In this document: positions 43,869-63,501 of the stretch, one piece after another | How positions within the stretch are numbered: the stretch's first letter is position 1 | Layout of the letters: every line of letters starts with the position of its first letter | Assembly (NCBI RefSeq): GCF_000317145.1 | Contig: NC_019697.1 | Location: forward strand, 1,612,001 to 1,676,000 | DNA: 64,000 nucleotides | Reading direction: 5' to 3' | From: Chamaesiphon minutus PCC 6605 | GTDB lineage: Bacteria > Cyanobacteriota > Cyanobacteriia > Cyanobacteriales > Chamaesiphonaceae | Notes under the pieces: generated by a model | The model's database searches: none | The model's input: only the letters and a program-made list of their open reading frames with translations | What the model was told of the DNA's origin: nothing | Translations under genes and position numbers: made by a program

Positions 43869-44029
43869 TTGACTTTCTCTCTTCCTGGGGAGATTTTCTA
43901 GTGTCTTTCTTTTTGGCTGGCTTTGACTCTATTTTTGGTTCGGTCTTACTTGTCATACCGGATTACTTCTTTTTGTCACCTACCCGCCAATACCCTGTCA
44001 CGACCCGCCATTAACAGTGTCGTCTAATA

Positions 44030-44640
44030 CCCTTTCTCATGCCAGTACCGTTGAGCATGAGGACGATAAGTTTGTCTCTGAGGCGATGACAGGCATCCAC
44101 TAGCGTTGCTACTTGCTCGTCGGTCAAGCAACCTGGAAAGCTCTTCGGCTCCTTGAGCTTGACTAGCTTCTGTCTGGTGGGTTTGCTCTTGGCGATACCC
44201 GTGAGCAATCCTCTGGTGCCAATCCCATAAGGCATGTGAAATCTATCGAACTGTTTGAAGTCTACTCGACCGTTAGCGATGTGATATTCGTAAAAGCCTG
44301 TAATGGCAGTAATCGCTCGATTGACGGTCTTTTCAGACCGGATTGCCTGCACTGGTTGCATGGATACGACTTTGGTTGTATCCCCAACTCTCAACCAGTA
44401 CGCAAAATCTTCCACGTCAGTTAGGTTGATATTGCGCCAGTCTAGAGTTTTAAGTTCGAGAAATTTCCACCAGAATTTGAGATCGTAAGCGTATGCCTCG
44501 ACGGTATTAGGAGACTTACCAGTACTGAGGTATGTGAGATAGCGTTGGATGGGTTCGACTACCTCGTAGCGATCGTCGAGCATCAGCCAGACGATTTCAT
44601 TGGTATGGGGGTCGATTCCTTTCTGAATGTTTAACTTCAT
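44030..44640 (-). pseudogene. tyrosine recombinase, 5' part only
   Basis: From ATG 44638-44640 the frame encodes a phage-integrase-type N-terminal SAM-like domain (PIQRYLTYLSTGKSPNTVEAY) and the start of the catalytic domain up to the first Arg (LNGTGMRKG). There it meets the IS21-type end and stops after five foreign residues. The His, Arg and Tyr of the active site are lost. It was probably the resolvase or integrase of the plasmid backbone. Confidence 0.85.
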
Positions 44641-44905
44641 GGTGTAATCGTACCACAAAACACGTTGTAGAAATAAAACCATGTAACTATCTATCTTTGA
44701 CTTCTGTATAAGAAGAGGGTCGTTGTTGTTGTTGTCTAATTAATAATTCTTGTATGAGATAATTGGCATCTCAGTTACAAGCAGAAGGAACCAGATGGCA
44801 AGTACAAATCGCATACCGTCTCCGTTAGACCCGAACAAGTAGCTGCTGTAAAAGTGTTAATTGCCGGAAATGTACCGCTAGAAGTGGTTTTGAGCTATCT
44901 CCGCA

Positions 44906-44929
44906 GTTCCAAGTAATTACTTGGAACTA
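44906..44929. repeat. 24-bp perfect palindrome, site 1
   Basis: Half-site AGTTCCAAGTAA joined directly to its complement. The same sequence recurs at 45056-45079. Confidence 0.85.
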
Positions 44930-45052: not shown

Positions 45053-45082
45053 AATAGTTCCAAGTAATTACTTGGAACTATT
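45053..45082. repeat. 30-bp perfect palindrome, site 2
   Basis: Contains the same 24-bp core as site 1, with symmetry extended three bases on each side (AAT/ATT). It lies about 70 bp after the last gene of the partition-like operon. Confidence 0.85.
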
Positions 45083-45148: not shown

Positions 45149-45778
45149 TTAAAATAATTCTGGCAGCCTTCGATATTCTGCCAAAATTGCATCCAACGGC
45201 TCGATAAACACTCGGATTATCTCTTTAACGGTACTGCGCGTCTTGGGAGTCAACCGCGTAAAAGCCACCATCAGCGAGCGATGGAGGCTCCGATCTGGCA
45301 AGGTATAGACAAGCGTAGACATCTCCAGCGGTTCGAGGACATCAAGGCGCGTCCCATATTGGTATATAGTCTGCATCGTTTTAGTTTTCATTCCTGTGGC
45401 AAGCATAGAGTACCATTGCTGTTGGGAAATAGTCATTGGCATCAAAAACTGTACCTTGATGTTCTTTGTCATCAAAGGCTCTAATTCCGCTACCACCCGA
45501 TCCGCTTCCCAGGCATCGGTAGGAAGTGGTTGCCAGTAATAGGTGTCGTCGAGCATCCCAATTTCAGCTTCGACCAGATAATCCCACAATTGACTTGGCA
45601 CCACATTCTCGATCACCCCTGGCACGGTCGTTTGTGTGTCGATTAATTTATCTAGATCCCACCTGTCGCATAAAGTAAAGTCTTTAGTATCGTGCCCTAG
45701 ATCGTAAGTCTTCAAGATCGACTCGATCGCTTTAGTACACAAATCCGTATATCTATTGCTGGGGATTAAGTGCAGCAT
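45149..45778 (-). CDS. hypothetical protein, last gene of partition-like operon
   Basis: The 209-residue soluble protein is not recognised. It has no signal or membrane segment and a mixed alpha/beta pattern with a repeated LEPL element (about residues 100 and 150). It lies 29 bp downstream of the ParA-like gene in the same direction and next to the palindromes, so it may be a DNA-binding or adaptor component of the partition system (inference from place only). Confidence 0.65.
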   Translation of the reverse strand: MLHLIPSNRYTDLCTKAIESILKTYDLGHDTKDFTLCDRWDLDKLIDTQTTVPGVIENVVPSQLWDYLVEAEIGMLDDTYYWQPLPTDAWEADRVVAELEPLMTKNIKVQFLMPMTISQQQWYSMLATGMKTKTMQTIYQYGTRLDVLEPLEMSTLVYTLPDRSLHRSLMVAFTRLTPKTRSTVKEIIRVFIEPLDAILAEYRRLPELF

Positions 45779-45807
45779 TCGCTCTTAACTCGCAGGTGTT
45801 TGGTTAG

Positions 45808-46764
45808 CTACTGTTGGGTCTGCTCCGTGCGATCGACTGCTGGCGTAGTACCATCAGCTTCTGCCGTCTGCGGTGGGAGGTACTTAGGATGATAGGGGAT
45901 ATAGCCAGTACTGCCTAATACCTGAGTTGCTTCCCTGAGCCATTTATTGAGCCGTCGCTTCGAGGGATCTGACATCCAGGTATCCGCTAGTGCCGCACCA
46001 AACGGAATATATTCGCTGAGAATCTTATTTTTATCCTCTGGAGCTACCAGCATTTCGGGGAAAACGATCGATTTAAATCCATACTTATCGAGCAGTGCTT
46101 GAATCTTGCCATCGGGGTCAAAATCCCCCCGCTCCCACCGGATATCCGTCGGGGCACCTAAATTCTTAACGAGTACGTGGGGAATCTGCCCCTCAAATCG
46201 CTCCACTGATTCGACAAATAAATCCAATGACTCGCGGGTGCCATTGGTAATGAACAAGAAGACAATATCGATCGTATTTTCGGGATCTTGGAGCATTTCG
46301 ACCGCATCATTTTGTTCGAGCCACTGATTGATATGTGTCGCCACCTGGGACGGCAACACTAGTAGCACATCACGAACTTTCGCCAGTTCAAATATTTTGT
46401 CAGCGTGAAAATAGTTATCTGGGTTGCCCGTAAATACGATCTGCTCTTGTAGCGTCAATCGATCTGACTCGCTACCCTTGCCCTTACGCGAGAGGGTGGG
46501 GGTACTAGCTCGACCGCCTTGGAGTGCCACATCCTTAAACTCTCGATACATCTGGGGTGCATAAGTTAAACCCACATTCGGAGTCGAAACATCAGCATCA
46601 ACTAGAAAAAACGAGCGATTGGCAGCGGTAAGCTGTTCTGCTGCTGTTAACCCCACGATCGTTTTACCCATCCCCCCTTTTTCACTAATGCTGACCAAGA
46701 TCGTCGTTCGTTCGCCCTGGGGGTTGTCAGTTCCATCGAGATGAGCGATTACTTTCTTATTCAC
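45808..46764 (-). CDS. ParA/MinD-type ATPase
   Basis: The 318-residue P-loop ATPase has the deviant Walker A KGGMGKT at residues 29-35 (signature Lys at 29), FFLVDADVSTPNVGL as Walker A', and IDIVFLFITNGT as the Walker B region. ParA ATPases position plasmids on the nucleoid. A short insert (TPTLSRKGKG, about residues 88-97) comes from a dispersed repeat. It follows a ParM-like gene by only 6 bp, which is unusual because type I and type II partition ATPases normally occur in separate systems. Confidence 0.85.
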   Translation of the reverse strand: MNKKVIAHLDGTDNPQGERTTILVSISEKGGMGKTIVGLTAAEQLTAANRSFFLVDADVSTPNVGLTYAPQMYREFKDVALQGGRASTPTLSRKGKGSESDRLTLQEQIVFTGNPDNYFHADKIFELAKVRDVLLVLPSQVATHINQWLEQNDAVEMLQDPENTIDIVFLFITNGTRESLDLFVESVERFEGQIPHVLVKNLGAPTDIRWERGDFDPDGKIQALLDKYGFKSIVFPEMLVAPEDKNKILSEYIPFGAALADTWMSDPSKRRLNKWLREATQVLGSTGYIPYHPKYLPPQTAEADGTTPAVDRTEQTQQ

Positions 46765-46770
46765 GAGCGT

Positions 46771-47946
46771 CTAATTTTTTGAAGTAGATTTAGCTAGAGA
46801 TTTAGGTGTCGATTTGAGTCGGGGTTTGGGCATTAAGTACTCCCACAGGCAGTAAACATCGGCCATCCTCGCTTGGTATCCCTCCGGCACGTCTAGTTGC
46901 GGCAAGTGAAAGCCGATGTTGCTACCATAAATTGCGGCTTTACCACCCAACTCCGCATGTGCGGGTAATCGAGCGTCAAAATAAGCCACAAATTCAGCTT
47001 GCAGCACATCTGCCGTACCCCCAGACATCATCACCGCTGCTAGATCGCTGGGCAATTGTTCGTCGAGCCAATTAAAGACCGACTCACAATATATTTTATG
47101 GGTCTGCTCGATGACCTCAACTAATCGCACGATTTCTGCTGGATACGATCGCTCGTCCTGCCTTCGCAAAATCGGTTGAAGTGTGGCAACATCTTTGCTC
47201 GTCCAGTATCGAGCTAGTGCTACGCTCAATGTTTCTAACTGATATCCAGCCGTCTTGTTCATTACTTCCTTGACCCAACTGTTAAAGCCTAAGTCGCAAC
47301 TGGCAAACCCAGCTACCATACCATCGGTGGCGATATAGCACGTCAAGTTGCGATGTCCTGCCATTAAGATGCCCACTCTCGACTGGAGATTACTGGGATG
47401 TCGATGTTGATATAGTTCGAGGATGCCCGCGCCCTCTGGATAAAAAGTAGCACTCGTCAAATTGACATTCATCGCACCCATTGGCGAGTCAAACTCGGCT
47501 AAAAACTCGCCCAATCGACCCTGTAATAACTCCTCATCGGCGAGTTCGCTCGGCGGTAACAGACACCCCAGCGACAGATCGAAACTGTGTCCTAAGTCGA
47601 ACCGATCCGCTAAGAGCGATGTCGCCGCTAAAACTTTATAGGCAGCAGATTCGACCTTGAGTGGCTTAAAGCGTTGAAACGCCCCAAACCGTCGCGCCAA
47701 TGCCCCGACAGCATAGTAGCGGTCTGCGACTCCCACAAAAGCGTACTCTCCTGTTGAGTGTCGAGAGCCTTTGCCGATGCTGTATCCGTCTAGCTTCCCC
47801 TCTAGACTCGATCGATCGATTTCAATGACTTCAGGAGACATAATCGACGATACTATTACCCCCTCACAAATACCGATTACTTTGGTCGCACTAGCTCCAA
47901 AGTCAACGGCAATAGACATCAGCTTGCGTCTAGCCATAGTTACCAT
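46771..47946 (-). CDS. ParM/StbA-like actin-type ATPase
   Basis: The 391-residue actin-fold protein has the phosphate-1 motif IAVDFGASATKVIG at about residues 12-25, a second phosphate-type segment SCDLGFNSW and the adenosine motif MMSGGTADVL. Bacterial actins of this kind form filaments that push plasmids apart or act in other cytoskeletal roles. A basic Lys/Ser/Pro tail (about 372-391) is unusual and may bind DNA. The preferred start is ATG 47946 or the Met four codons later. It is preceded by a small gene in the ParR position. Confidence 0.82.
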   Translation of the reverse strand: MVTMARRKLMSIAVDFGASATKVIGICEGVIVSSIMSPEVIEIDRSSLEGKLDGYSIGKGSRHSTGEYAFVGVADRYYAVGALARRFGAFQRFKPLKVESAAYKVLAATSLLADRFDLGHSFDLSLGCLLPPSELADEELLQGRLGEFLAEFDSPMGAMNVNLTSATFYPEGAGILELYQHRHPSNLQSRVGILMAGHRNLTCYIATDGMVAGFASCDLGFNSWVKEVMNKTAGYQLETLSVALARYWTSKDVATLQPILRRQDERSYPAEIVRLVEVIEQTHKIYCESVFNWLDEQLPSDLAAVMMSGGTADVLQAEFVAYFDARLPAHAELGGKAAIYGSNIGFHLPQLDVPEGYQARMADVYCLWEYLMPKPRLKSTPKSLAKSTSKN

Positions 47947-47968
47947 CCGTGTGGCGATCTACAAATAT

Positions 47969-48421
47969 CTACTTCAATCCTGAAAAATTGCTAGATCTTT
48001 GCGGTGGAATCAGTACTACCTCGTCATCATCATCCTCTGGGTCGTCCTCCACATTGTCTTCACCGACCTTTTTGTCCGATCGCTCGACGGCGATTGGCTG
48101 AGACAATTGACCCAAAAATGACACCCTTCTCGCCAATCCATCAATCGGAAATGGCAGACCTTCTAGGCTATAGAGATCGACCAATGAATTGATGTGACCG
48201 AGCAAGCGATCCAACGACTGATACCCGATCGTTAATAATTCTTTGTCTGACAACTTGCCGCGATCGACTAACATCGCGCCTGGTAAATAGTGAGCCACTA
48301 ATGCCTCGATCGTCATCTCTCGCGATAAATTAGCTCTGGTTAAGTAAGCATAGATCGCTTGTAATCGACGATCGTTGCCCGAAAAATCGATGGTAATTCT
48401 CTTCCTTGCTGATTCAGTCAT
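47969..48421 (-). CDS. ParR-like small DNA-binding protein
   Basis: The 150-residue protein starts with a strand-plus-helices pattern (RKRITIDF, then helices to about residue 45) that fits a ribbon-helix-helix type domain, followed by a helical region and an acidic Asp/Glu tail (about residues 118-135). Position directly before the actin-like gene is that of ParR, which binds the centromere and the filament end. Three iteron-like repeats lie just upstream of it. The assignment is by context and style, with no direct match recognised. Confidence 0.6.
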   Translation of the reverse strand: MTESARKRITIDFSGNDRRLQAIYAYLTRANLSREMTIEALVAHYLPGAMLVDRGKLSDKELLTIGYQSLDRLLGHINSLVDLYSLEGLPFPIDGLARRVSFLGQLSQPIAVERSDKKVGEDNVEDDPEDDDDEVVLIPPQRSSNFSGLK

Positions 48422-48490
48422 AATTGACTAATTCGATCGTTTCTCCAAATATAGCCAATTAGGATTATTTCTGGGTCAACTATAAATAAA

Positions 48491-48625
48491 TGGTGACAGA
48501 TTGACAAAAGTTCGATCGAACCACCCAGATTTTACCAATTTCGATTGCTATTTATACCGCCTTTATGGTGGCAATCTGTCACCATAACTCGAAAATACTG
48601 CCATTTTGGAAGCAGTTTGTCACCA
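48491..48625. promoter_or_regulatory. iteron-like repeats upstream of partition operon
   Basis: The 13-mer TGGTGACAGATTG is at 48491-48503. Its complement CAATCTGTCACCA is at 48572-48584, and CAGTTTGTCACCA at 48613-48625 matches with two differences. All lie within 205 bp before the ParR-like gene and are the obvious candidate parC/operator for autoregulation and segregation. Confidence 0.6.
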
Positions 48626-49039
48626 CTAAATTCTATTCTTATCGCTCACAGCGGTAATTGTTGCCCCATGCTCGATATTTCTAGTACTAATTTAAGGATT
48701 TGAGTTAGTATCGATATTAACCCGTATTACTCACCCGCTAATAGCTGTGCCCTGTTGGCTAATTTTAGCCTTAGCCAGCCATGTCATTCGTGGGTACATT
48801 CTTTAATACCTGCGGCACCTTTAACTGACTCATCTGGCAAAAGGATTACCACCCTCTTGACACCCACTAGAACTAATTTTAAAAGTTGTGCGCGAGCGAA
48901 ATTAGCGATCGTCGTTAGACGACGCGCAAGCTTCGAGTCTTGTAATAAAACATCGGTTTTCACACTTCACAAATGTAACCACTTGTCTTGCAAGTTGAAT
49001 CCGACTTTTAGTTAAACGTAGCTTGATGGTAATCGAACA
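48626..49039. other. non-coding gap before mob genes
   Basis: This is about 410 bp between divergent par and mob genes. A weak plus-strand frame (48755-49015) has no family or ribosome site. The region could contain the transfer origin, because relaxosome genes start right after it. A GTCGT-TAG-ACGAC inverted repeat is at about 48913-48925. Confidence 0.4.
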
Positions 49040-49399
49040 ATGACCAAGCCTCATAGTCCCGATGTTAAAGTAAATAGCTTCAAAATCAGAGTCAGCAATG
49101 CCGATCTCGATTTACTACACGATCGAGCAAAGTCGGTAAATATGCCACTGACCCAATATTTGCGATGGAGAGGATTACAACCCATCGGGCAACTCCAAAA
49201 AACTGCCGTTAAAGCCATTTCGGTTGTCGATCCTGCTAAGATTCTCATCCATAAAGAACTCAGACAGCAAGGTCATCACCTCGATCGCATTGCCAAGGGG
49301 ATTAACACGGCTAACCTGACAGGGAGTACATTTAGCAACTATCAGCGGTTGCTTGCCGAAATTAGAGACGAACTAGCTAAGTTAGGAGCCAAGCTATGA
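49040..49399 (+). CDS. mobC: MobC-like relaxosome accessory protein
   Basis: The 119-residue protein has an N-terminal ribbon-helix-helix pattern (KVNSFKIRVSNADLDLLHDRAK) and the MobC-type C-terminus (LRQQGHHLDRIAKGIN, then LLAEIRDELAKLG). Such proteins bind near oriT and help the relaxase open the strand. Its stop overlaps the relaxase start (ATGA at 49396-49399). Confidence 0.85.
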   Translation: MTKPHSPDVKVNSFKIRVSNADLDLLHDRAKSVNMPLTQYLRWRGLQPIGQLQKTAVKAISVVDPAKILIHKELRQQGHHLDRIAKGINTANLTGSTFSNYQRLLAEIRDELAKLGAKL

Positions 49400-50973
49400 T
49401 TAGTCGCACGACACATGGCAGCAATTTTAAAGGACTGCTCGATTATTTGCTCAATCCTGAAAAACGACCAGAAATTATTGCTAACTATATGTTTGGGAAC
49501 AATCCTACCGACTTGGCGCGGGAATTTAATGAGGTTGCCAGTCTCCGACCTACGACCAAACTACCCGTGCGGCATATCTCCCTGTCTTTCGCCCCTGGGG
49601 ATGTTGTAGATCGTCTCGATCGGGAATCGATCGTCAATCGAGTTATGACGCACATGGGTTACGATGACTGTCAATTTATCGGGATCGCCCACCACCGCGA
49701 CGATCCAGGACACGATTTGCCCCACGACCACGACCATCTACATATCGTTGTGAATGCTGTTGATGTCTACGGTCGAAGAGTTTCTGATAGTTGGGATCGG
49801 TTCAAGATTCAACCGATTCTTCGAGGGATCGAGCGCGATTTTGGCTTGCAGCCCGTTAAAAATTCCTGGGAGGTAAAGCAGGAAAAGGTTCATAAGCTAA
49901 ATCCAGACCTAGAGATTTTCCAACTAGTCGATCGATCCCTTGAAAACTGCCCCAATCTAGAGACTTGGATCGATCGCTTGCAGGAGTCCCAAATCGATGT
50001 CCTGTTTGCGCTACGGCAAGATAATCAGGTCAATGGCATCACTTATCTTCAAGGTAGTCGGGCATATAAGGGCAGCGAGATTGGGGTAAGTTGGAATGCG
50101 GTCGCTCGACAAGTCCCGACCACCCCCGACAACCTGCCACTGATTAGGGCGGCTAATGATAAAAGCCAGGAGCATCGCATGGATCTGGGCGAGATCGAGA
50201 GACAGAACTTCGATCGGGCGGTGATGATGGCAAATATGGTAGTCAAGGGGCGCGAACGGATCAAAACCGGACGACTCGACATCAAACGAGATGGCGACAC
50301 TCTGACGGCTTACCGGATGCGTCCGCATCGCCAAATCTTTAAGGCGATCGAGACACTGGGGGGATGGGAACCTGTGGGATTTCCCAATATCGAGCGTATA
50401 GATCTCAATTTATTGACGAAACTATCTGGCTATAAAGACGCGCCAGCTTACATATTAGAAGAGCAGGATCTGACAATCGTTCGCGTAGCGGATGAAATCG
50501 CGCTGAGGGAACCTCAGCGTGCGTTTCACCAGCGACGCATCGACTCGGAGGGAACCTCCGAGTTGTGTGCGTCAAGACAAGCAGCGTTCCCTTTGGGAAA
50601 TCGATCGTCAGAGTTACCACACTCAAGCAGTATCCCAGTGACCTTGAAGCAAATCATCGATCTCAAGAACTACTATGTCAACTCTCCTGAAGGACGCGCT
50701 AAACCAGAGGGCAGCGACGCTCTAGAGAAGTTTGACATCTATAAATTGCAACTATCTCAGCATGGTAAAGCGGCAACTGGCGATCCAAATCTCAAGATGA
50801 CGAATAAGTTTTTTAAGACCTTCGAGTCTGACCGAATAAAGCTTTGTGCCGCAGACCGAGCTAACTTAGACGCGGCTTCGGCGTTTGCTACCGAACAGGC
50901 ACAGATCGCTCTTGAAATCGCCCAAGCATCTTCGCTAGAACTCAGGCAACGCAGCCGTGGATGTTCGAGATAA
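49396..50973 (+). CDS. relaxase (MobA/VirD2 family)
   Basis: The 525-residue conjugative relaxase nicks oriT and leads DNA into the recipient. It starts MISRTTHGSNFKGLLDYLLN (a Tyr nucleophile at residue 17), and the metal-binding three-His motif III is HDHDHLHIVVN at residues 110-120. The central region to about residue 370 is typical of Mob proteins. About residues 371-410 derive from inserted hairpin repeats. Residues 416-506 are a C-terminal module with roughly 60 percent identity by eye to residues 425-515 of the protein encoded at 59795-61408. Confidence 0.92.
   Translation: MISRTTHGSNFKGLLDYLLNPEKRPEIIANYMFGNNPTDLAREFNEVASLRPTTKLPVRHISLSFAPGDVVDRLDRESIVNRVMTHMGYDDCQFIGIAHHRDDPGHDLPHDHDHLHIVVNAVDVYGRRVSDSWDRFKIQPILRGIERDFGLQPVKNSWEVKQEKVHKLNPDLEIFQLVDRSLENCPNLETWIDRLQESQIDVLFALRQDNQVNGITYLQGSRAYKGSEIGVSWNAVARQVPTTPDNLPLIRAANDKSQEHRMDLGEIERQNFDRAVMMANMVVKGRERIKTGRLDIKRDGDTLTAYRMRPHRQIFKAIETLGGWEPVGFPNIERIDLNLLTKLSGYKDAPAYILEEQDLTIVRVADEIALREPQRAFHQRRIDSEGTSELCASRQAAFPLGNRSSELPHSSSIPVTLKQIIDLKNYYVNSPEGRAKPEGSDALEKFDIYKLQLSQHGKAATGDPNLKMTNKFFKTFESDRIKLCAADRANLDAASAFATEQAQIALEIAQASSLELRQRSRGCSR
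50502..50599. repeat. in-frame hairpin repeats in relaxase, copy 3
   Basis: Three perfect stems follow each other: GCTGAGG/CCTCAGC (50502-50518), ACTCGGAGG/CCTCCGAGT (50543-50563) and TTCCC/GGGAA (50587-50599). The second, with its flanks CGCATCGA and TTGTGTGCGTCAAGACA, is the inverted counterpart of the element at 4222-4277. Confidence 0.75.
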
Positions 50974-51028: not shown

Positions 51029-51808
51029 ATGAATACGAAATCGGCTGTGACCAGAGTTATTTCTAAGGTGAATGTTCGTGATGTTGGAATTAATGAAGAA
51101 GAGTTTTCTGCCAATATTATTGAAAGTCCAACCGTAAATGGACTGTATTTGGGTTGGGTACGAAAGGATACTCAAAAATGGGAGCCTTTGGCTAAATTAA
51201 CGATCGTCGAAGGTGGGTATACAGCTCAGTACACTAGCAACCATGAGGAAATATCAGCCCTGTATCCAGGCTATAAGGATCTCTTGATTTGGTCGGAGCT
51301 AGATGTTGTAAATCGAGATTTTCCACACATATTTCGGAATAGAATGCCCCTGTTACGAAATGATGTTAAAAATGATTGTGAATTTCTAAAGTTAGATTAT
51401 CCCCAGATCGATAAAATAGCTTATGTCAGTCGATATGGAGGAAGAATTTGTGGCGATAAATTTAGTATTTGCCCGTCGATCGAACCCGATGCGTCAGGCA
51501 ACTATATCTTTTACTGTGCTTTGAGTGGTGTAGAAGAAAGACAAGAACCAAGAAAAATTTGGCAACAGATTAGAGATCGATCTGGGAAGTTTAGCTTAAT
51601 CAAAGCTGAAGATAAATATTGCCTGGAATTTGAAGGTGTAATCCTTGGATATCTCGAACAATACTTTGAACTCATTGATGGCGAAATTATTCAGATCGAG
51701 ATTATCAATTTTACCGATCCTAGCAAACGCCAGGGTCATTCAGTCCTGCTCAAAATTATCATTCATGGTAAAAATGCTTACGCTCATAGATTGTTTCAAG
51801 ACATCTAA
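51029..51808 (+). CDS. HIRAN-like partner of HipA-like kinase
   Basis: The 259-residue soluble protein has an N-terminal beta segment with LYLGWVRKDTQKW and AKLTI, then FPHIFRNRMPLL and YVSRYGGRICGDKFSICP. This layout resembles bacterial HIRAN-domain proteins that occur beside HipA-like kinases and may recognise DNA ends or act as the cognate control protein. It is followed after 10 bp by the kinase gene in the same direction. No ordinary HipB (helix-turn-helix) is present, which makes the pair atypical. The domain call is by resemblance only. Confidence 0.55.
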   Translation: MNTKSAVTRVISKVNVRDVGINEEEFSANIIESPTVNGLYLGWVRKDTQKWEPLAKLTIVEGGYTAQYTSNHEEISALYPGYKDLLIWSELDVVNRDFPHIFRNRMPLLRNDVKNDCEFLKLDYPQIDKIAYVSRYGGRICGDKFSICPSIEPDASGNYIFYCALSGVEERQEPRKIWQQIRDRSGKFSLIKAEDKYCLEFEGVILGYLEQYFELIDGEIIQIEIINFTDPSKRQGHSVLLKIIIHGKNAYAHRLFQDI

Positions 51809-51818
51809 ACTACTTTAA

Positions 51819-52715
51819 ATGTCAAATCTATATCCAATTATTACCGTTCTTAGGGAAACTCTCGATAGAAGTGAAAAGTTTCTAGGTGGAGCCGAAGAAA
51901 AATATAAAATTCCTTGGAGACAGACAGATCTAACTCGCGAACAAATAGCTATCTTCAAGATCGATAACGAACCTAGAGAACTAAGTCGGGTATGGATCGA
52001 AAAACTCGGAGCCGAACTTGCAACTGCGATGGGATTGCCTACGGCTACTTATGAGATGTGCCAAACGGAGCCAGATCTTCGAGCGATTCTTTCTCCCAGT
52101 TATATGAAGCTGGAAGCGCAAGAGCGATCGGGGATGAGGCTAATGCAAGAAGTTCTTGCTGACAACGAACGACTGTATGCGATCGAGAATGTGATTGCTG
52201 TATTCGACCGCCTCGATATCGGGTTGCCTTCTGGATATAATTCGCCACCAGAAATTAGCATGGCAAAAGATTTATTTGTCGGATATTTACTCCACGACTA
52301 CTGGATCGATAATCCCGACCGCCACGACCGTAACTGGGGGATTCAAGTCGATCTAAATGGGAATAAAGAACTCTTACCAAACTATGACTATGGACGTGCT
52401 TTAGTTGATTTTCCACTGACAAATAATCGATTTGAGATCTTTGCCGAACGACTCGGACAAGTGAGAACTTGTGCTTTTGTCAATAATGACGGCGACAAAA
52501 TCAAAATGGATGAAATGGTTCGATTACTAACCAAAATAAATCCAGATGCTACGAAATATTGGAGCGATCGCATCGCCCAAGTGGGGGAAAAAGGACTAAA
52601 TGCTGTATTCGATCGTTTTCCTCTAAATTCGGCAAGTCCAGAAAGAATTGAATTTGCGAAAGTATTTATCGATTACAATTCTTTCCGGTTACAGCAGATC
52701 GTTCAGAGCATATAG
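51819..52715 (+). CDS. HipA-like serine/threonine kinase
   Basis: The 298-residue protein has the C-terminal kinase core of HipA-like proteins: the catalytic loop HDYWIDNPDRHDRNWGIQV (Asp and Asn of the active site) at about residues 163-181, and the metal-binding Asp in NYDYGRALVD at about 191-200. HipA-type toxins phosphorylate tRNA synthetases or other proteins and induce growth arrest. The N-terminal lobe is short and may be completed by the partner protein encoded just upstream, as in split HipBST-type systems (inference). Location beside a relaxase suggests plasmid maintenance or defence. Confidence 0.78.
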   Translation: MSNLYPIITVLRETLDRSEKFLGGAEEKYKIPWRQTDLTREQIAIFKIDNEPRELSRVWIEKLGAELATAMGLPTATYEMCQTEPDLRAILSPSYMKLEAQERSGMRLMQEVLADNERLYAIENVIAVFDRLDIGLPSGYNSPPEISMAKDLFVGYLLHDYWIDNPDRHDRNWGIQVDLNGNKELLPNYDYGRALVDFPLTNNRFEIFAERLGQVRTCAFVNNDGDKIKMDEMVRLLTKINPDATKYWSDRIAQVGEKGLNAVFDRFPLNSASPERIEFAKVFIDYNSFRLQQIVQSI

Positions 52716-58365: not shown

Positions 58366-59808
58366 TTAATTACGATGGGGAATTGGGGTGTAGGGATCGA
58401 GTTGGCGATCGGGTAGAAAATTGCGTTTGCCCGAACTAGCTGGATCGGCTTTATCGACGAGCATATTGCGGATGTCATGGATTTTCTTTTTGTCGCGCTT
58501 GTACATTGAATTGAATGCTAAGGTCGTCTCAATCAAATCGTCGATTGTCACCGTTAAAGTTTGGCGTTCGCGATGAACTCTGGCGATCGTATCTTGAGTG
58601 ACTTGTTGAATTTCTGCACCGATAAATTCAATGGAGCTATCAGCGAGGTATTGCCACTCTTGAGGGGAGAACACCGGATCGTCTGAATTGGCAAACCGTT
58701 TGTCGTAGCGTTTGAGAAATAGTCTAAATAGCTCTACTCGTTGTCCTTCATCGGGCGAATCGATAAAGAACGTTCGATCGAACCGTCCCGAACGGGTCAT
58801 TTCGATCGGCACTTCTGCCATCCGGTTTAATGTCCCGATGACGAATACTTTGGCGAGCTTATCGTTGAGCCAAGTGAGGAATGTTGCCAAAATGCGGCGA
58901 TCGATTCCTTGTCCGAATAATTTCTCAATCTCATCGACAAACAGAATACAGGGGGCGCAACTTTCGATGGTAGTTAGAAGTTTGGGTAGAGCTAACCCAC
59001 CACCTTCGATAACGTAATCGATGCTTAAGGCGAACACTGGAGAGGCTGTTTGAGCGGCAATCGCGTAAGCTGCAAATGTCTTTCCCGTTCCTGGTGCCCC
59101 TGCCAGCAATACTCCTTTCGGGTAGGGCAAACCGATGGCTTCGGCAGCGGCACTGAGCCTGTACTCTAAATCCTCGATCCACCGTACCAATAAGTCCAAG
59201 CCACCGATTTCGGTGTGCTGAGGTGGTGGCATGTACCGGATACCCTTGAGTGCCATTCGTTTCGAGCGAAATCGTTCGACTTGAGCATAAGGATCGCGGT
59301 GGGGGTCGATTTTTCGCAAGCACCCTTCTAGATCCGCATGGGATAGACCCATCGACAACCGGATTAAGCGATCGTCTTGGGGTAGAGCGTACTTTCCCAG
59401 TAACTCATAAATCTCAGTTCCACTCGGCAATTCAACGATCCGCTCTTCAACTAGAAATCCCAGCGCGGAGGGGATGGGGGTGAGATCGGTTTGAAGGATA
59501 TAGATGCTCGTTGGTCGATCGAATTCTTGGAAATAGATCGATCGCAATCTGTCGTAGACGATCTGTTGCTCCATCCGCTCTAGACAAGCTAGGGCACTCA
59601 GGTAATCTGCCCAAATTTGGGTACCACCTGCGGATACTAGATCGATCGGTTGAATCAGCCTGTCTAAGTCGCTCAGTGGGTCTGGACTTCGCGCGATCGA
59701 CCAGGTGGGAAACTTGCCAATTCCTAACCGGAGCGGCACCGCTGGCGCGTCGATGGGGTCGCAGCGCAGGACGACAATTTCGAGTTGATGTGTTTCACAT
59801 GCCAACAC
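58366..59808 (-). CDS. Ycf46-like AAA+ ATPase
   Basis: The 480-residue protein has an N-terminal region of about 200 residues typical of Ycf46-type proteins and a C-terminal AAA+ domain with Walker A GAPGTGKT at residues 237-244, Walker B CILFVDEIEKLF, sensor 1 in VIGTLNRMAEVP and the arginine finger in RSGRFDRTFFID. Ycf46 of cyanobacteria is chromosomal and linked to carbon-use control; a copy within a transfer operon is unusual. It overlaps the upstream gene by 14 bp. It may remodel relaxosome or secretion proteins (inference). Confidence 0.85.
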   Translation of the reverse strand: MLACETHQLEIVVLRCDPIDAPAVPLRLGIGKFPTWSIARSPDPLSDLDRLIQPIDLVSAGGTQIWADYLSALACLERMEQQIVYDRLRSIYFQEFDRPTSIYILQTDLTPIPSALGFLVEERIVELPSGTEIYELLGKYALPQDDRLIRLSMGLSHADLEGCLRKIDPHRDPYAQVERFRSKRMALKGIRYMPPPQHTEIGGLDLLVRWIEDLEYRLSAAAEAIGLPYPKGVLLAGAPGTGKTFAAYAIAAQTASPVFALSIDYVIEGGGLALPKLLTTIESCAPCILFVDEIEKLFGQGIDRRILATFLTWLNDKLAKVFVIGTLNRMAEVPIEMTRSGRFDRTFFIDSPDEGQRVELFRLFLKRYDKRFANSDDPVFSPQEWQYLADSSIEFIGAEIQQVTQDTIARVHRERQTLTVTIDDLIETTLAFNSMYKRDKKKIHDIRNMLVDKADPASSGKRNFLPDRQLDPYTPIPHRN

Positions 59809-61408
59809 TTTTGGTTTGACTCCGTTGGTGCGTGGGTGATTCTGGTTTGTTCTGTTTCTGCTGTGCGGCGATCTGGGCTTGTTCGGCGGCGAAGGTATTA
59901 GCCGCCTCTAAGTTGTCTCGATCTGCGGGTGCCAACTCGACCGCATCAGATTGAAAGGTCTTAAAAAATCCGTTAGTCATTTTGAGATCGGAATTATTGC
60001 TAACTGCCTTACCGTGCTGCGATAGTTGGGCTTTATAGCGATCGAAGTTTGCGACTGCTTCATGGCTTTCTGGTTTGGCTTTGCCTTCTGGGGATTTGGT
60101 ATAAAAGTTTTTGAGGTTAATCAAATCTTTGAGACTTACTCCAGGCTTAGATCCATTCAACGATCGTTCTGCGATCGAAGCTTTTACTGCTGCTGGAGGC
60201 GACTCCCCAGCTACGGATGGCACTGAGTCGGGTTGGTTATTTACGGCTGGCGTGGAGGCGACAATCGGGGCTTTGCCTGGAGCTTCCTTCGCCAGTCCCT
60301 CGTTCTTCACGAATTGGCTGACAGCGGTATAGTGGGGAGCCGTGTATTCCTTACTCAGAATGACATTCCCTTTCTCATCCATCTTGCCGAGGACGACTGG
60401 CTCTGGCGCGTCAACCTCGTACATTTTGATTTGAACGATTCCATCGCCCTCTCGCCCTGAAATCGGCTCGGCTTTGATGGTAGAGCCATTGTCGAGTTTT
60501 ACTTCCCCATCGCGGTCGAGACTACTTTTTAGCCCAATGAGAGCATCCACCTTCTGTTTATTGGCGATCGCGTCTGGCGTTTCTGGAGAAGACCGCGCCA
60601 TTGACGAACCCTTTGCCATGCGTTCAAATTGGCGATCTGGGGGTGCGATGCCCGTCGTTTTCGTGACTTCTAATTCGTCTCTAAGCGATTGCTCGTTGCG
60701 GACGATCGATGTCGCGCGTTGTTGTAAGTCATTAATCGAGTTGACAATTGGAATATTTCGGTTGGCTTTGAACTGCCGATCTCGATCGTTGGCCGAATAA
60801 ATGACCTTTCCTTTGGCATCTGTTTCAAATAGCTTTCGATCGCCAGACTTAATTAGTAGATTCTCGCCATTGTTGATTCTCGATCCCTCCGAACTAGAAA
60901 TTAAATCGATAATGGCTTGCGCTTCGATTCCGGTAATTCCTGGCTTGAATAAAGTTTTAGTCTCCCAAAAGTCGCTAAATTTATAGAGCGTTTCACCAGA
61001 TGATTTCGATGGGGAAAACTCTTCATCTCTAGTAGAATTTGGTAATTCCTCCTCAACGGTCGATGTTGTTAGTTCTGCTTCTTCTCTCCGACCGCCTTGC
61101 GGCGCGCTTACGCGATCGCACTCCGGCTCACCTTCTGGTTCGAGCGTAGCTGTTTTTTTGATTACCTCAAGATCGGCATACTCCAATTTGGCTTCGGGCT
61201 GTGGAGATTCTCTATTAACATTGGCATTGGGACTGTCCGATTTTTTAATTGCTTTAACTGCTGGCTTGCGACGTTCGTAGGCATTGTTCGCCAGCGTTAC
61301 GATAAAATTGACCGCATTTCTAGTGGTATGTTTAAGCTGCTCGTCACCGATAGCTGAAGTCTCTTTGAGATTTCTAATTAATTCATCCAAACTAACTTGA
61401 GCTGTCAT
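59795..61408 (-). CDS. transfer-operon protein sharing the relaxase C-terminal module
   Basis: The 537-residue protein has a helical N-terminus (about 1-50), a long Glu/Pro/Ser-rich linker (about 55-135) that includes residues from a dispersed repeat (RVSAPQGGRR), a middle domain resembling DNA-primase-like or MobA accessory regions (FETDAKGKVIYSANDRDRQF, then EVKLDNGSTIKAEPI), and residues 425-515 that match relaxase residues 416-506 without gaps (for example QLSQHGKA and LKMTNGFFKTF). The shared tail suggests a common partner such as the coupling protein. The specific function is unknown. Confidence 0.75.
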   Translation of the reverse strand: MTAQVSLDELIRNLKETSAIGDEQLKHTTRNAVNFIVTLANNAYERRKPAVKAIKKSDSPNANVNRESPQPEAKLEYADLEVIKKTATLEPEGEPECDRVSAPQGGRREEAELTTSTVEEELPNSTRDEEFSPSKSSGETLYKFSDFWETKTLFKPGITGIEAQAIIDLISSSEGSRINNGENLLIKSGDRKLFETDAKGKVIYSANDRDRQFKANRNIPIVNSINDLQQRATSIVRNEQSLRDELEVTKTTGIAPPDRQFERMAKGSSMARSSPETPDAIANKQKVDALIGLKSSLDRDGEVKLDNGSTIKAEPISGREGDGIVQIKMYEVDAPEPVVLGKMDEKGNVILSKEYTAPHYTAVSQFVKNEGLAKEAPGKAPIVASTPAVNNQPDSVPSVAGESPPAAVKASIAERSLNGSKPGVSLKDLINLKNFYTKSPEGKAKPESHEAVANFDRYKAQLSQHGKAVSNNSDLKMTNGFFKTFQSDAVELAPADRDNLEAANTFAAEQAQIAAQQKQNKPESPTHQRSQTKSVGM

Positions 61409-61686: not shown

Positions 61687-63501
61687 TTAAATATTGAGAT
61701 TGAAGATCGGTTCAGCCATGTCTTCGGTGACTTCTTCGGTTTGAGAATTTAAAGGTAAGATGTCATTTAAAATTTGGTAATATTCCCGCATTAATTGGGT
61801 GTAGTCCTGTTGTTGTGCTGGCTTACCGCGTTTGGCAACATCGCAAAGTACTCGATATTTGCGTTTGCACTCTGCTCTGAATTTGGTATTGAGTTTTTTA
61901 CTAAACTTAAAGCTATGCTTGTAAGGCAAACCTACTTCATCTTTATTTCCAACCGTGGGAGACTGAATGACACAAGTACCCTTGGGAAAATTCAGCGGTT
62001 CTTGTGGCTCTAATAGAGAGACTTGATGGAGTTGAGTACCCGTCGTCCGATTGGTACCACTGCCTTTACCCGAACTAGTAGATTTAGAAACAGTGGGCAA
62101 CTCGATTTCTTGTTTATTGAGTAAATCTGAGAGGACTTTGGCCGTCTCTGGGTTGCCAGGGTTGTACCAGATTTTTGTCGCACAACTGGCAAGGAAGCCC
62201 TCTGCTCTTGCCTTACCATATTTTTCTAGTTGACCGAGATACTGAATCCCAATGATGAGGCTGCACCCAGAAGAGCGATAGCGGTTGAGCCAATCGAGAA
62301 CCACTGGCATGTTTAAGGTGTCAAACTCATCGAGAATAATTACTAGCGGGCGATCTCGGTGGTATTTGAGGTTGTAGCTGACGATTTGTTCTAGAGCCGT
62401 CGCAATCAGGGGTAGCGTCGATTGTTCGTTGGCTTGGTTGACTCCAAACACTAACATTTGCTTGCCATCAACTTTGAGTGGTTCTGCTTCATCGAAGCGG
62501 GGAAAAGTACTCGTGCCGCAGAAATTGTCAAGGAAGTTTGGAAGAATCATCGGTGAGAGGAACTTATTGGCGGTCGCCAGTAAGCCGCCCTCGGTATTGT
62601 TTTTCTCGCCTTCACCACTACTGCTAATCAAGATCGAAAACGCACTGTAGCACCAGGGCGGAATCTTCTCTCGGTGCAGCTCAAGCCGTTTGGAGAGGTT
62701 TGGCAGGGAGAGGATTTGGCTTGCCATCAAGATATTGGCATAGCTGGGCACGTTGAGATATTCAGCGACCCATCTTGCCATCAAGAACGCACCTTCAAGG
62801 ATCGCCTTGCCTCCAGGATCGAAGAAGCCATCTGTTTTGGCATCTTTACTGGTGTTATTTCTAACCATGCTGCCAATAGCTTCTCTGGCTCCCGCTAAAT
62901 CCGCAGAATTCTTAATCAGATCGAAGATATTAAACGTCCCCGACAACACGCTCCCAGGCGCGAGAGTGCGGACTTGATAGCCATAATCGATCGCCACAGG
63001 CATCAACGATTCCGCCAAGCCATTATTATCGAATTTGTAATCGAATAACACGAGCGAACATGCTTCTTTAATAGCTGAGATTGCCGCAGGTTCGATGAAG
63101 TTGAGCGTCTTGCCCCAGCCAGCCCCGCCAACGACCAACGTGCCGCAATTGATTTGGGGAAAAAACAGGATATTCTTGGCTTGATTTGGCGATTTCCATT
63201 GTTGGGGTGGCATCCCAATCGGTTCTTGAATATAGTAGGTTGCGTCGTTAAATTGAGAGTTCTTACCGACACAAGCTAGCCCTGCTTTTTTAGAGTTCTT
63301 GAGATCGTCGGCATTTGCCCACCGCGCTCTAGCAGTTTTGCCCTTTTTAGGGATTCTGTTTCTAAGCAAAGTGATAATCGCGATCCCGATTAACATCAAG
63401 CCAATGACTGCGAGCTGCGGGTCGGCTTTGAGTTTGGCAATGATATTATTTAGTGGTTTTACATCGATAGAAAATGTGTTTTTCAATATCCTTGCTCGCA
63501 A
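61687..63501 (-). CDS. type IV coupling protein (VirD4/TraD family)
   Basis: The 604-residue ATPase brings relaxase-DNA to the secretion channel. It has an N-terminal membrane segment (about residues 31-46), Walker A VVGGAGWGKTLNF at about 123-135 and Walker B LVIILDEFDTLN, followed by the SLIIGIQYLGQL segment. The first 19 bp overlap the preceding gene. Together with the relaxase and MobC it indicates a conjugative or mobilizable element, although the VirB-type channel genes are not in this window. Confidence 0.92.
   Translation of the reverse strand: MRARILKNTFSIDVKPLNNIIAKLKADPQLAVIGLMLIGIAIITLLRNRIPKKGKTARARWANADDLKNSKKAGLACVGKNSQFNDATYYIQEPIGMPPQQWKSPNQAKNILFFPQINCGTLVVGGAGWGKTLNFIEPAAISAIKEACSLVLFDYKFDNNGLAESLMPVAIDYGYQVRTLAPGSVLSGTFNIFDLIKNSADLAGAREAIGSMVRNNTSKDAKTDGFFDPGGKAILEGAFLMARWVAEYLNVPSYANILMASQILSLPNLSKRLELHREKIPPWCYSAFSILISSSGEGEKNNTEGGLLATANKFLSPMILPNFLDNFCGTSTFPRFDEAEPLKVDGKQMLVFGVNQANEQSTLPLIATALEQIVSYNLKYHRDRPLVIILDEFDTLNMPVVLDWLNRYRSSGCSLIIGIQYLGQLEKYGKARAEGFLASCATKIWYNPGNPETAKVLSDLLNKQEIELPTVSKSTSSGKGSGTNRTTGTQLHQVSLLEPQEPLNFPKGTCVIQSPTVGNKDEVGLPYKHSFKFSKKLNTKFRAECKRKYRVLCDVAKRGKPAQQQDYTQLMREYYQILNDILPLNSQTEEVTEDMAEPIFNLNI

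Follow-up and report, generated by a model that had tools for sequence, protein, structure and literature searches.

An operon of Chamaesiphon minutus that appears to join an actin-type partition cassette to a TraL/MobD-type conjugation ATPase

StbAB of plasmid R388 and ParMR of R1 each suggest that partition factors steer conjugation too. Deletions in R388 have tied StbA to stability and StbB to conjugation, and StbB, TraL of RP4 and MobD of pTF-FC2 are encoded in operons linked to the origin of transfer (oriT) and share a KGGXXK[T/S] motif, according to passages of Guynet et al. (PMC3098194). For R1, PMC4949242 reports contacts of both ParM and ParR with TraI and a joint rise in relaxase activity, ParM also binding TraD and TraC. 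In the SXT/R391 integrative and conjugative elements (ICEs), SrpR binds the srpM-mobI intergenic region, as probed with oriT and srpC fragments, and srpMRC deletions lower transfer as well, 4- to 14-fold (parts of PMC4489591). Compared with these systems here is a four-gene operon of the cyanobacterium Chamaesiphon minutus PCC 6605, which lies in a stretch of 64,000 nucleotides (hereafter the window; contig NC_019697.1, positions 1,612,001 to 1,676,000, forward strand) and encodes a ParR-like candidate, an actin-like ATPase, a ParA-like ATPase and a protein of no recognised family. The evidence tips, with appreciable room for doubt, towards a partition-and-transfer operon that belongs to an integrated element, either conjugative or mobilizable, and in which ParMR has replaced StbA/TraK and the TraL/MobD half has been kept. 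What carries this reading is gene content, the recurring adjacency of the genes, the relation of the ATPase family to TraL, the way ParMR and StbA exclude each other among the examined loci and the 11-bp repeats found in many relatives, all of which are sequence evidence. The operon and the genes opposite it are as follows, in window coordinates:

47969..48421, minus strand: ORF1, ParR-like candidate centromere-binding protein (150 aa, acidic C-terminal tail)
46771..47946, minus strand: actin-like ATPase of the ParM/StbA family (391 aa)
45808..46764, minus strand: deviant Walker A ATPase, ParA-like and probably of TraL/MobD type, hereafter MobD (318 aa, GTG start)
45149..45778, minus strand: ORF4, third-slot protein (209 aa)
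48422..49039, no strand: divergent intergenic region between the operon and mobC, candidate site of the operon promoter, centromere and oriT
49040..49399, plus strand: MobC/NikA-like relaxosome protein (119 aa; PF21983 NikA-like at 2.4e-6, above cut-off)
49396..50973, plus strand: MOBP-type relaxase (525 aa; PF03432 at 4.9e-26; NCBIfam TraI/MobA(P) model at 3.6e-16, below cut-off)

The four minus-strand genes, with gaps of 22, 6 and 29 bp, are present as the original prediction had them; the mob context, in which the mobC and MOBP relaxase genes start opposite the operon across 618 bp, was not mentioned there. A plasmid location, which it had assumed, is contradicted by the assembly: the window sits at 1.61-1.68 Mb in a 6,284,095-bp contig of a three-contig genome, and this copy of the operon is therefore integrated and not part of a free plasmid. 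Since srpMRC stabilises SXT/R391 ICEs, an integrated element may carry an actin-type partition system.

The adjacency of the actin and ParA-like genes is conserved. A genome survey covered the best 80 of 196 relatives of the ParA-like gene, a sample weighted to window-like sequences whose nearest members come from Chamaesiphon, and an actin gene was found upstream on the same strand at 36 of the 80 loci. Within these 36, a ParR-like gene occurs in 35, a third gene in 34 (in five cases overlapping MobD) and an opposite MOBP relaxase gene in 28, the median gaps around ParR being -4 and 27 bp. Of the remaining 44, five are on short contigs, and in 39 the available upstream sequence exceeds 2.5 kb. 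Among plasmids, where relatives of the ATPase are mostly annotated as MobD-like, mobilization or hypothetical proteins, a hand tally counted, among 39 records with a ParA-like relative, at least 28 in which an actin gene lies no more than about 4 kb away in the same orientation; five of the 11 records without visible ParM were opened. The order actin-ParR-MobD-third gene was read in eight annotated plasmid loci, seven of them with relaxase or MobC opposite. At a threshold of 1e-10, 386 genomes drawn from the phylum yielded 25 with a match to the MobD profile and 59 with a match to the ParM profile; the least significant ParM-profile matches (E about 1e-11 to 1e-18) span part of the profile only. 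Recurrence across cyanobacteria suggests that these elements control both inheritance and transfer between cells through a single operon.

The position occupied by ParMR is filled differently in loci that lack the actin gene. In 17 of the 44 actin-free loci (18 with an overlapping ORF call, L144), the gene immediately preceding MobD encodes a StbA-like protein, and no such protein was found in the 36 actin-positive loci; ORF1 and ParM take this position in the window. The plasmid loci opened follow the same pattern: nine have ParM and no StbA (L001-L004, L018-L021 and L023, ParM and MobD being about 4 kb apart in L018), three have a StbA-like protein and no ParM (L022, L095, L096), L094 has neither, and L093 shows a ParR-MobD-DUF6753 row without ParM beside IS701. 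In L022 (12145-13953; the linear plasmid pLBY of Leptolyngbya boryana), a protelomerase gene lies near the actin-free StbA-MobD-third-gene operon and its relaxase. The profile of 13 first-slot proteins from actin-free operons matched a profile of four sequences, R388 StbA and its positional counterparts in three other plasmids, over 55 columns (92.5%, E 4.9e-7), the shared stretch being presumably a helix-turn-helix, while ParR-position proteins used as a control gave 0.6% against the StbA family. Smaller comparisons gave 20% with three sequences and 39% with the 13 against R388 StbA alone, and a search of the Protein Data Bank (PDB) with the StbA-like proteins returned StbA (7pc1) at E 0.6, ranked below unrelated chains. 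By these comparisons, the ParMR cassette apparently occupies the StbA position of a stbABC/traKLM-type operon; since no actin locus among the 36 has a StbA/TraK-type first gene, the operon is not classed as stbABC but as one that would work like it. A quickly built MobD tree with 94 rows has long branches and an insecure root and leaves out two short-contig loci; on it, ParMR and StbA are separated by one change, or by eight when rows with neither are included, and ParMR against all others requires three; the labels count L117 as ParMR by its ParR alone, and L144 as neither despite the StbA-like ORF overlapping MobD. StbA as the ancestral state is a guess, this direction resting on a very long TraL branch.

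Further copies in the same genome show both the union of the genes and their separation. Relatives of the actin gene lie at four other genomic places, as do relatives of the ParA-like gene, for which an additional, partial one was detected by profile on the smallest contig. Locus L025 is a complete second operon (ORF-ParM-MobD-ORF4, mobC and relaxase opposite), and L024, on a 447-kb contig, is a further operon ORF-ParM-MobD without ORF4. L026 and L027 have ORF-ParM without MobD, and in L028 and L029 an ORF4 relative comes after MobD, the sequence retrieved around them containing no ParM, so that the operon consists of two pairs also found apart. These layouts bring up the main alternative, possible though rather unlikely, in which ParMR on the one hand and MobD with its third gene on the other are independent cassettes that share the leading region and a promoter, with no functional exchange between StbA and ParMR. 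It accommodates the ParM and ParR-position genes without MobD (besides L026 and L027, also L005 and L006), the MobD genes found elsewhere without ParM, and the gene order, the ParR-like gene preceding ParM in two Chamaesiphon loci and following it, as is common, in 33 of the 35 loci scored by profile. A third Chamaesiphon locus, L098, has an unscored 176-aa ORF in the position before ParM. Independent neighbours, however, are not expected to replace each other, as ParMR and StbA seem to do at the same slot, and the operon-like gaps around ParR and the rarity of the swap on the MobD tree also speak against this alternative.

The partition-and-transfer reading hinges further on the nature of the ParA-like protein. 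It had been proposed that type I and type II partition are combined in one operon. The deviant Walker A motif on which this was based is indeed read in the 318-aa protein (SEKGGMGKT), and KGGXXK[T/S] is found in it and in 13 of the 15 family members, two paralogues having LGG[SA]GK without the signature lysine. The 15-row family profile, however, aligned full-length with TraL of R751 (98.5%, E 3.2e-15, 224 columns), and three of four family members scanned matched the NCBIfam TraL model, each at a score (3.9e-6 to 5.8e-9) that falls well short of its cut-off. Judging from these alignments, the protein is probably not a partition ATPase but a TraL/MobD-type conjugation ATPase. The TraL alignment, the relaxase genes opposite and the StbA-type partners found without ParM thus disfavor the proposed union of type I and type II partition. 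A hybrid segregation machine, in which the ParA-like ATPase would be a second partition motor acting with ParM on the same DNA, is improbable: the shared operon, the ParA-like deviant Walker A motif, the weak matches to the CobQ/MinD/ParA domain seen in 12 of the 15 family members and the 11-bp repeats of relatives would all fit it, but the relation to TraL is full-length, whereas the window ATPase matches partition-ParA models below cut-off and mostly at the P-loop. Moreover, the Walker-B position lacks its Asp, no ParB family was recognised in ORF1 or ORF4 by Pfam and NCBIfam scans (parS was not searched for), and the equivalent StbB of R388 is dispensable for stability, as stated in the deletion results of PMC3098194.

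The actin-type identity of the 391-aa protein holds. Its family profile matched the solved structures of CorM (2.5e-21), Cbc-ParM (4e-8) and Alp12 (2.7e-4), and the protein itself falls just under the cut-off of Pfam ALP_N (2e-5, 25.3 bits; cut-off 26.3). The names of the phosphate and adenosine motifs, and the role of the phosphate-2 Asp, follow R1 ParM; the phosphate-1 DxGxSxxK and adenosine GG motifs are invariant in 16 of 16 family members. With the actin as query, tblastn found 102 plasmid records, 76 of them typed conjugative or mobilizable. CorM acts in cell shape, although literature searches returned no paper on it, and a CorM-like cytoskeleton, the actin, now chromosomal, having been adopted for a task of the host cell, would suit this nearest solved relative and the chromosomal window but is very improbable given the adjacent relaxase and MobC genes, the coupling protein gene nearby, the several genomic copies including the operon on the 447-kb contig, and the mobility types of the plasmid records.

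Recognition of ORF1 as the ParR partner depends on profiles. A profile of ORF1 and six positional relatives matched that of ParM-adjacent small proteins (98.6%, E 7e-16, 74 columns), and the ORF1 group presumably acts as a ParR adaptor. Taken alone, ORF1 gave no noteworthy match in Pfam or NCBIfam, and single-sequence searches found no relative. ParR proteins have a ribbon-helix-helix DNA-binding fold. The AlphaFold model of ORF1 consists of helices only (residues 18-29, 31-52 and 59-83, with block pLDDT of 72-93 there; pTM 0.49). It had no significant Foldseek match (best E 1.5), and its best VIA-align match (Z 7.0) is a channel protein, so that the fold comparison is uninformative. The profile comparison thus sustains the ParR-position call of the original prediction, to which the fold lends no support.

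The fourth gene does encode a 209-residue protein without a recognised family, as had been described, and its AlphaFold model (pLDDT 40) is uninformative. Among the loci examined, ORF4 relatives occur only in L025 (74% identical), in one other Chamaesiphon locus, L129 (69%), and, more distantly, in L028 and L029, every one directly after a MobD-type gene; none was found in plasmids. The MobD paralogues of L028 (7356-8956) and L029 (7662-9208), paired with ORF4 relatives, are the two without the signature lysine. A relation of ORF4 to the ATPase was considered, and profile comparison gave no sign of it (0.3%). DUF6753 is the commonest third gene in the actin-bearing relatives; by eye, with no membrane predictor used, a hydrophobic stretch is seen in DUF6753 and in StbC of R388 and none in ORF4.

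Repeats upstream of the first gene are a further feature of the relatives. The parC site of R1 has 11-bp repeats. In R388, the stbDRs are 9-bp repeats 2 bp apart, hence an 11-bp step too, as given in a section of PMC3098194. When as much as 500 bp in front of the first gene was tested for periodicity, p <= 0.02 was reached by 18 of 43 actin operons (34 of the 36 actin loci, two having no upstream sequence, plus the window, L024, L025 and six plasmids). Many of the loci are near relatives of one another, so that the shuffle, binomial and Fisher probabilities are not independent. The significant periods were 11 bp in 11 operons, 22 in six and 19 in one, and L025 carries arrays of an 11-bp unit (12.4 copies at 84%, 4.8 copies at 90%). 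Significant periods also appeared in three of 17 StbA loci (22, 22 and 7), which are no proper control, because a fixed offset defined the stretches tested there, which in part run into the gene. The iteron-like repeats once noted beside the window operon do not exceed chance: TGGTGACA occurs there three times, and 38 of 300 shuffles have some 8-mer as frequent. When the window intergenic region was aligned with five other Chamaesiphon loci, short shared blocks were seen. The large palindromes noted on the other side do exist, in that a perfect 24-bp palindrome is present at 44905-44928 and again at 45056-45079, 151 bp apart, but with nine copies in four clusters across the genome, spaced by 133-157 bp, they are not specific to the operon and represent a dispersed family of paired-palindrome repeats.

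Several results weigh against the partition-and-transfer reading. With respect to the ATPase, the window protein alone aligned with TraL at the P-loop only (E 0.007) and did not match the NCBIfam TraL model, and its family aligned with StbB of R388 at the P-loop only (10.6%). The catalytic residues are conserved in part: the P-loop is maintained in both ATPase families, but the phosphate-2 Asp present in CorM and Cbc-ParM is replaced by Met in 14 and Pro in two of the 16 actins, and the Asp of TraL's VIIDNG, at the Walker-B position, is Asn, Ser or Val in all 15 members of the MobD family, so that the activity of ParM and MobD is not assured. As for the slots, the StbA-like proteins gave 1.5% against TraK of R751 (0.3% with three sequences), which is not significant, and no Pfam family of note; the identification of ORF4 with DUF6753 was rejected (profile comparison 0.1%), and the gap between MobD and the third gene is wider than those around ParR (median 159, up to 1140 bp). 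The upstream region of the window itself shows no outstanding period between 7 and 24 bp (p=1.0). In 21 of the 80 loci, mostly from Nostoc, MobD has neither StbA, third gene nor relaxase in view, nor an adjoining ParM, although in one of them, L148, a ParM-ParR pair lies on the other strand about 4 kb off. Finally, no mating-pore gene was recognised, seven of the 11 ORFs of at least 150 aa just past the window (L030) having been tested, and the sole Pfam family in these seven is a weak AAA domain in one. The MobD relatives of the 21 loci (L102, L106, L123 and 18 more) are 234-244 aa long, with no DUF6753 in view.

On the precedents of R388, R1 and SXT/R391, the arrangement is most simply read as a partition cassette that occupies the stability position of a transfer operon. 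How such an operon might work can be outlined, all biochemical steps, the oriT position and the shared transcription being inferred. ORF1, as ParR, would recognise a centromere located in the divergent promoter region. Filaments of ParM would move apart the copies of the element after its excision, or those of related plasmids, as ParMRC of R1 does. The TraL/MobD-type ATPase would bring the relaxosome at a neighboring oriT to the transfer channel, assisted by the third gene product (DUF6753 in most actin-bearing relatives, ORF4 here). The stability half would thus have been exchanged for an actin motor and the conjugation half retained. On this analysis, some functional coupling between the two halves is likely. 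That ParM and MobD form one machine on ParR-bound DNA at oriT, which segregates by default and is redirected by MobD to the transfer channel on mating, is a tentative proposal, more doubtful than credible; if it were true, an actin motor would deliver DNA for conjugation, and actin would have replaced the passive StbA brake across a lineage of cyanobacterial elements. The operon bears on how plasmids balance inheritance against transfer. Related operons bearing StbA or ParMR offer a natural comparison, and the trade-off could be tested by swaps in laboratory cyanobacteria.

A further gene, about 11 kb beyond the relaxase, is taken to be part of the same element:

61687..63501, minus strand: type IV coupling protein (604 aa; TraG-D_C at 3.4e-20, T4SS-DNA_transf at 2.5e-17)

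Also in the window, a 537-aa protein (59795-61408) has no Pfam family and matches the relaxase of this element at 4.6e-34. After the relaxase come genes for a 259-aa protein (51029-51808) and a HipA-like kinase (51819-52715; PF07804 just under cut-off), and very similar ORFs, as judged by their N-termini, follow the relaxase in L129. A 223-aa ORF at 44011-44682 has a tyrosine-recombinase N-terminal domain but matches the catalytic domain only weakly and over a short length; it is possibly a broken integrase of the element.

For the comparison with known systems, the names trwA, stbA and stbC and the oriT places in the R388 and R751 layouts follow PMC3098194 or general usage. The operon resembles stbABC of R388 (IncW) in lying opposite mob genes, in having a deviant-Walker ATPase gene (stbB in R388) as the second component, and in that the first R388 gene, for a DNA-binding stability factor, is related to the first gene of the actin-free cyanobacterial relatives; it differs in that slot one holds ParR and ParM and that the ATPase family does not match StbB beyond the P-loop. 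With traKLM of the IncP plasmids R751 and RP4 it shares the full-length relation of the ATPase family to TraL, including the KGGVGK motif, and the general layout, traI-traJ of R751 lying opposite genes for the TraK family, the ArsA-related ATPase TraL and traM; by contrast, ParMR stands in the place of TraK, and the VIIDNG Asp is changed throughout the family. Agrobacterium VirC1 is likewise a ParA-family ATPase, suggested to position the relaxosome in T-DNA transfer (a passage of PMC3098194), but only one of the 15 family members matches the VirC1 model (E 0.074). In NAH7, too, partition proteins enhance transfer, one of them binding the oriT region, although this is a type I system without actin, as described in parts of PMC12421886. 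srpMRC of SXT/R391 is an actin-type partition system in an ICE, for which a ParA/TraL-type ATPase goes unmentioned in the relevant passages of PMC4489591. With parMRC of R1, the operon shares an actin-like ATPase with a small ParR-like neighbor and, in many relatives, 11-bp upstream repeats, but the cyanobacterial genes stand in a row with a conjugation-type ATPase and the phosphate-2 Asp is missing. The arrangement is undescribed in the titles and abstracts listed by a literature search whose coverage excluded preprints and most subscription papers. Both halves of the operon are of known kinds, and what appears to be new is their union in one recurring operon, in which ParMR exchanges with StbA.

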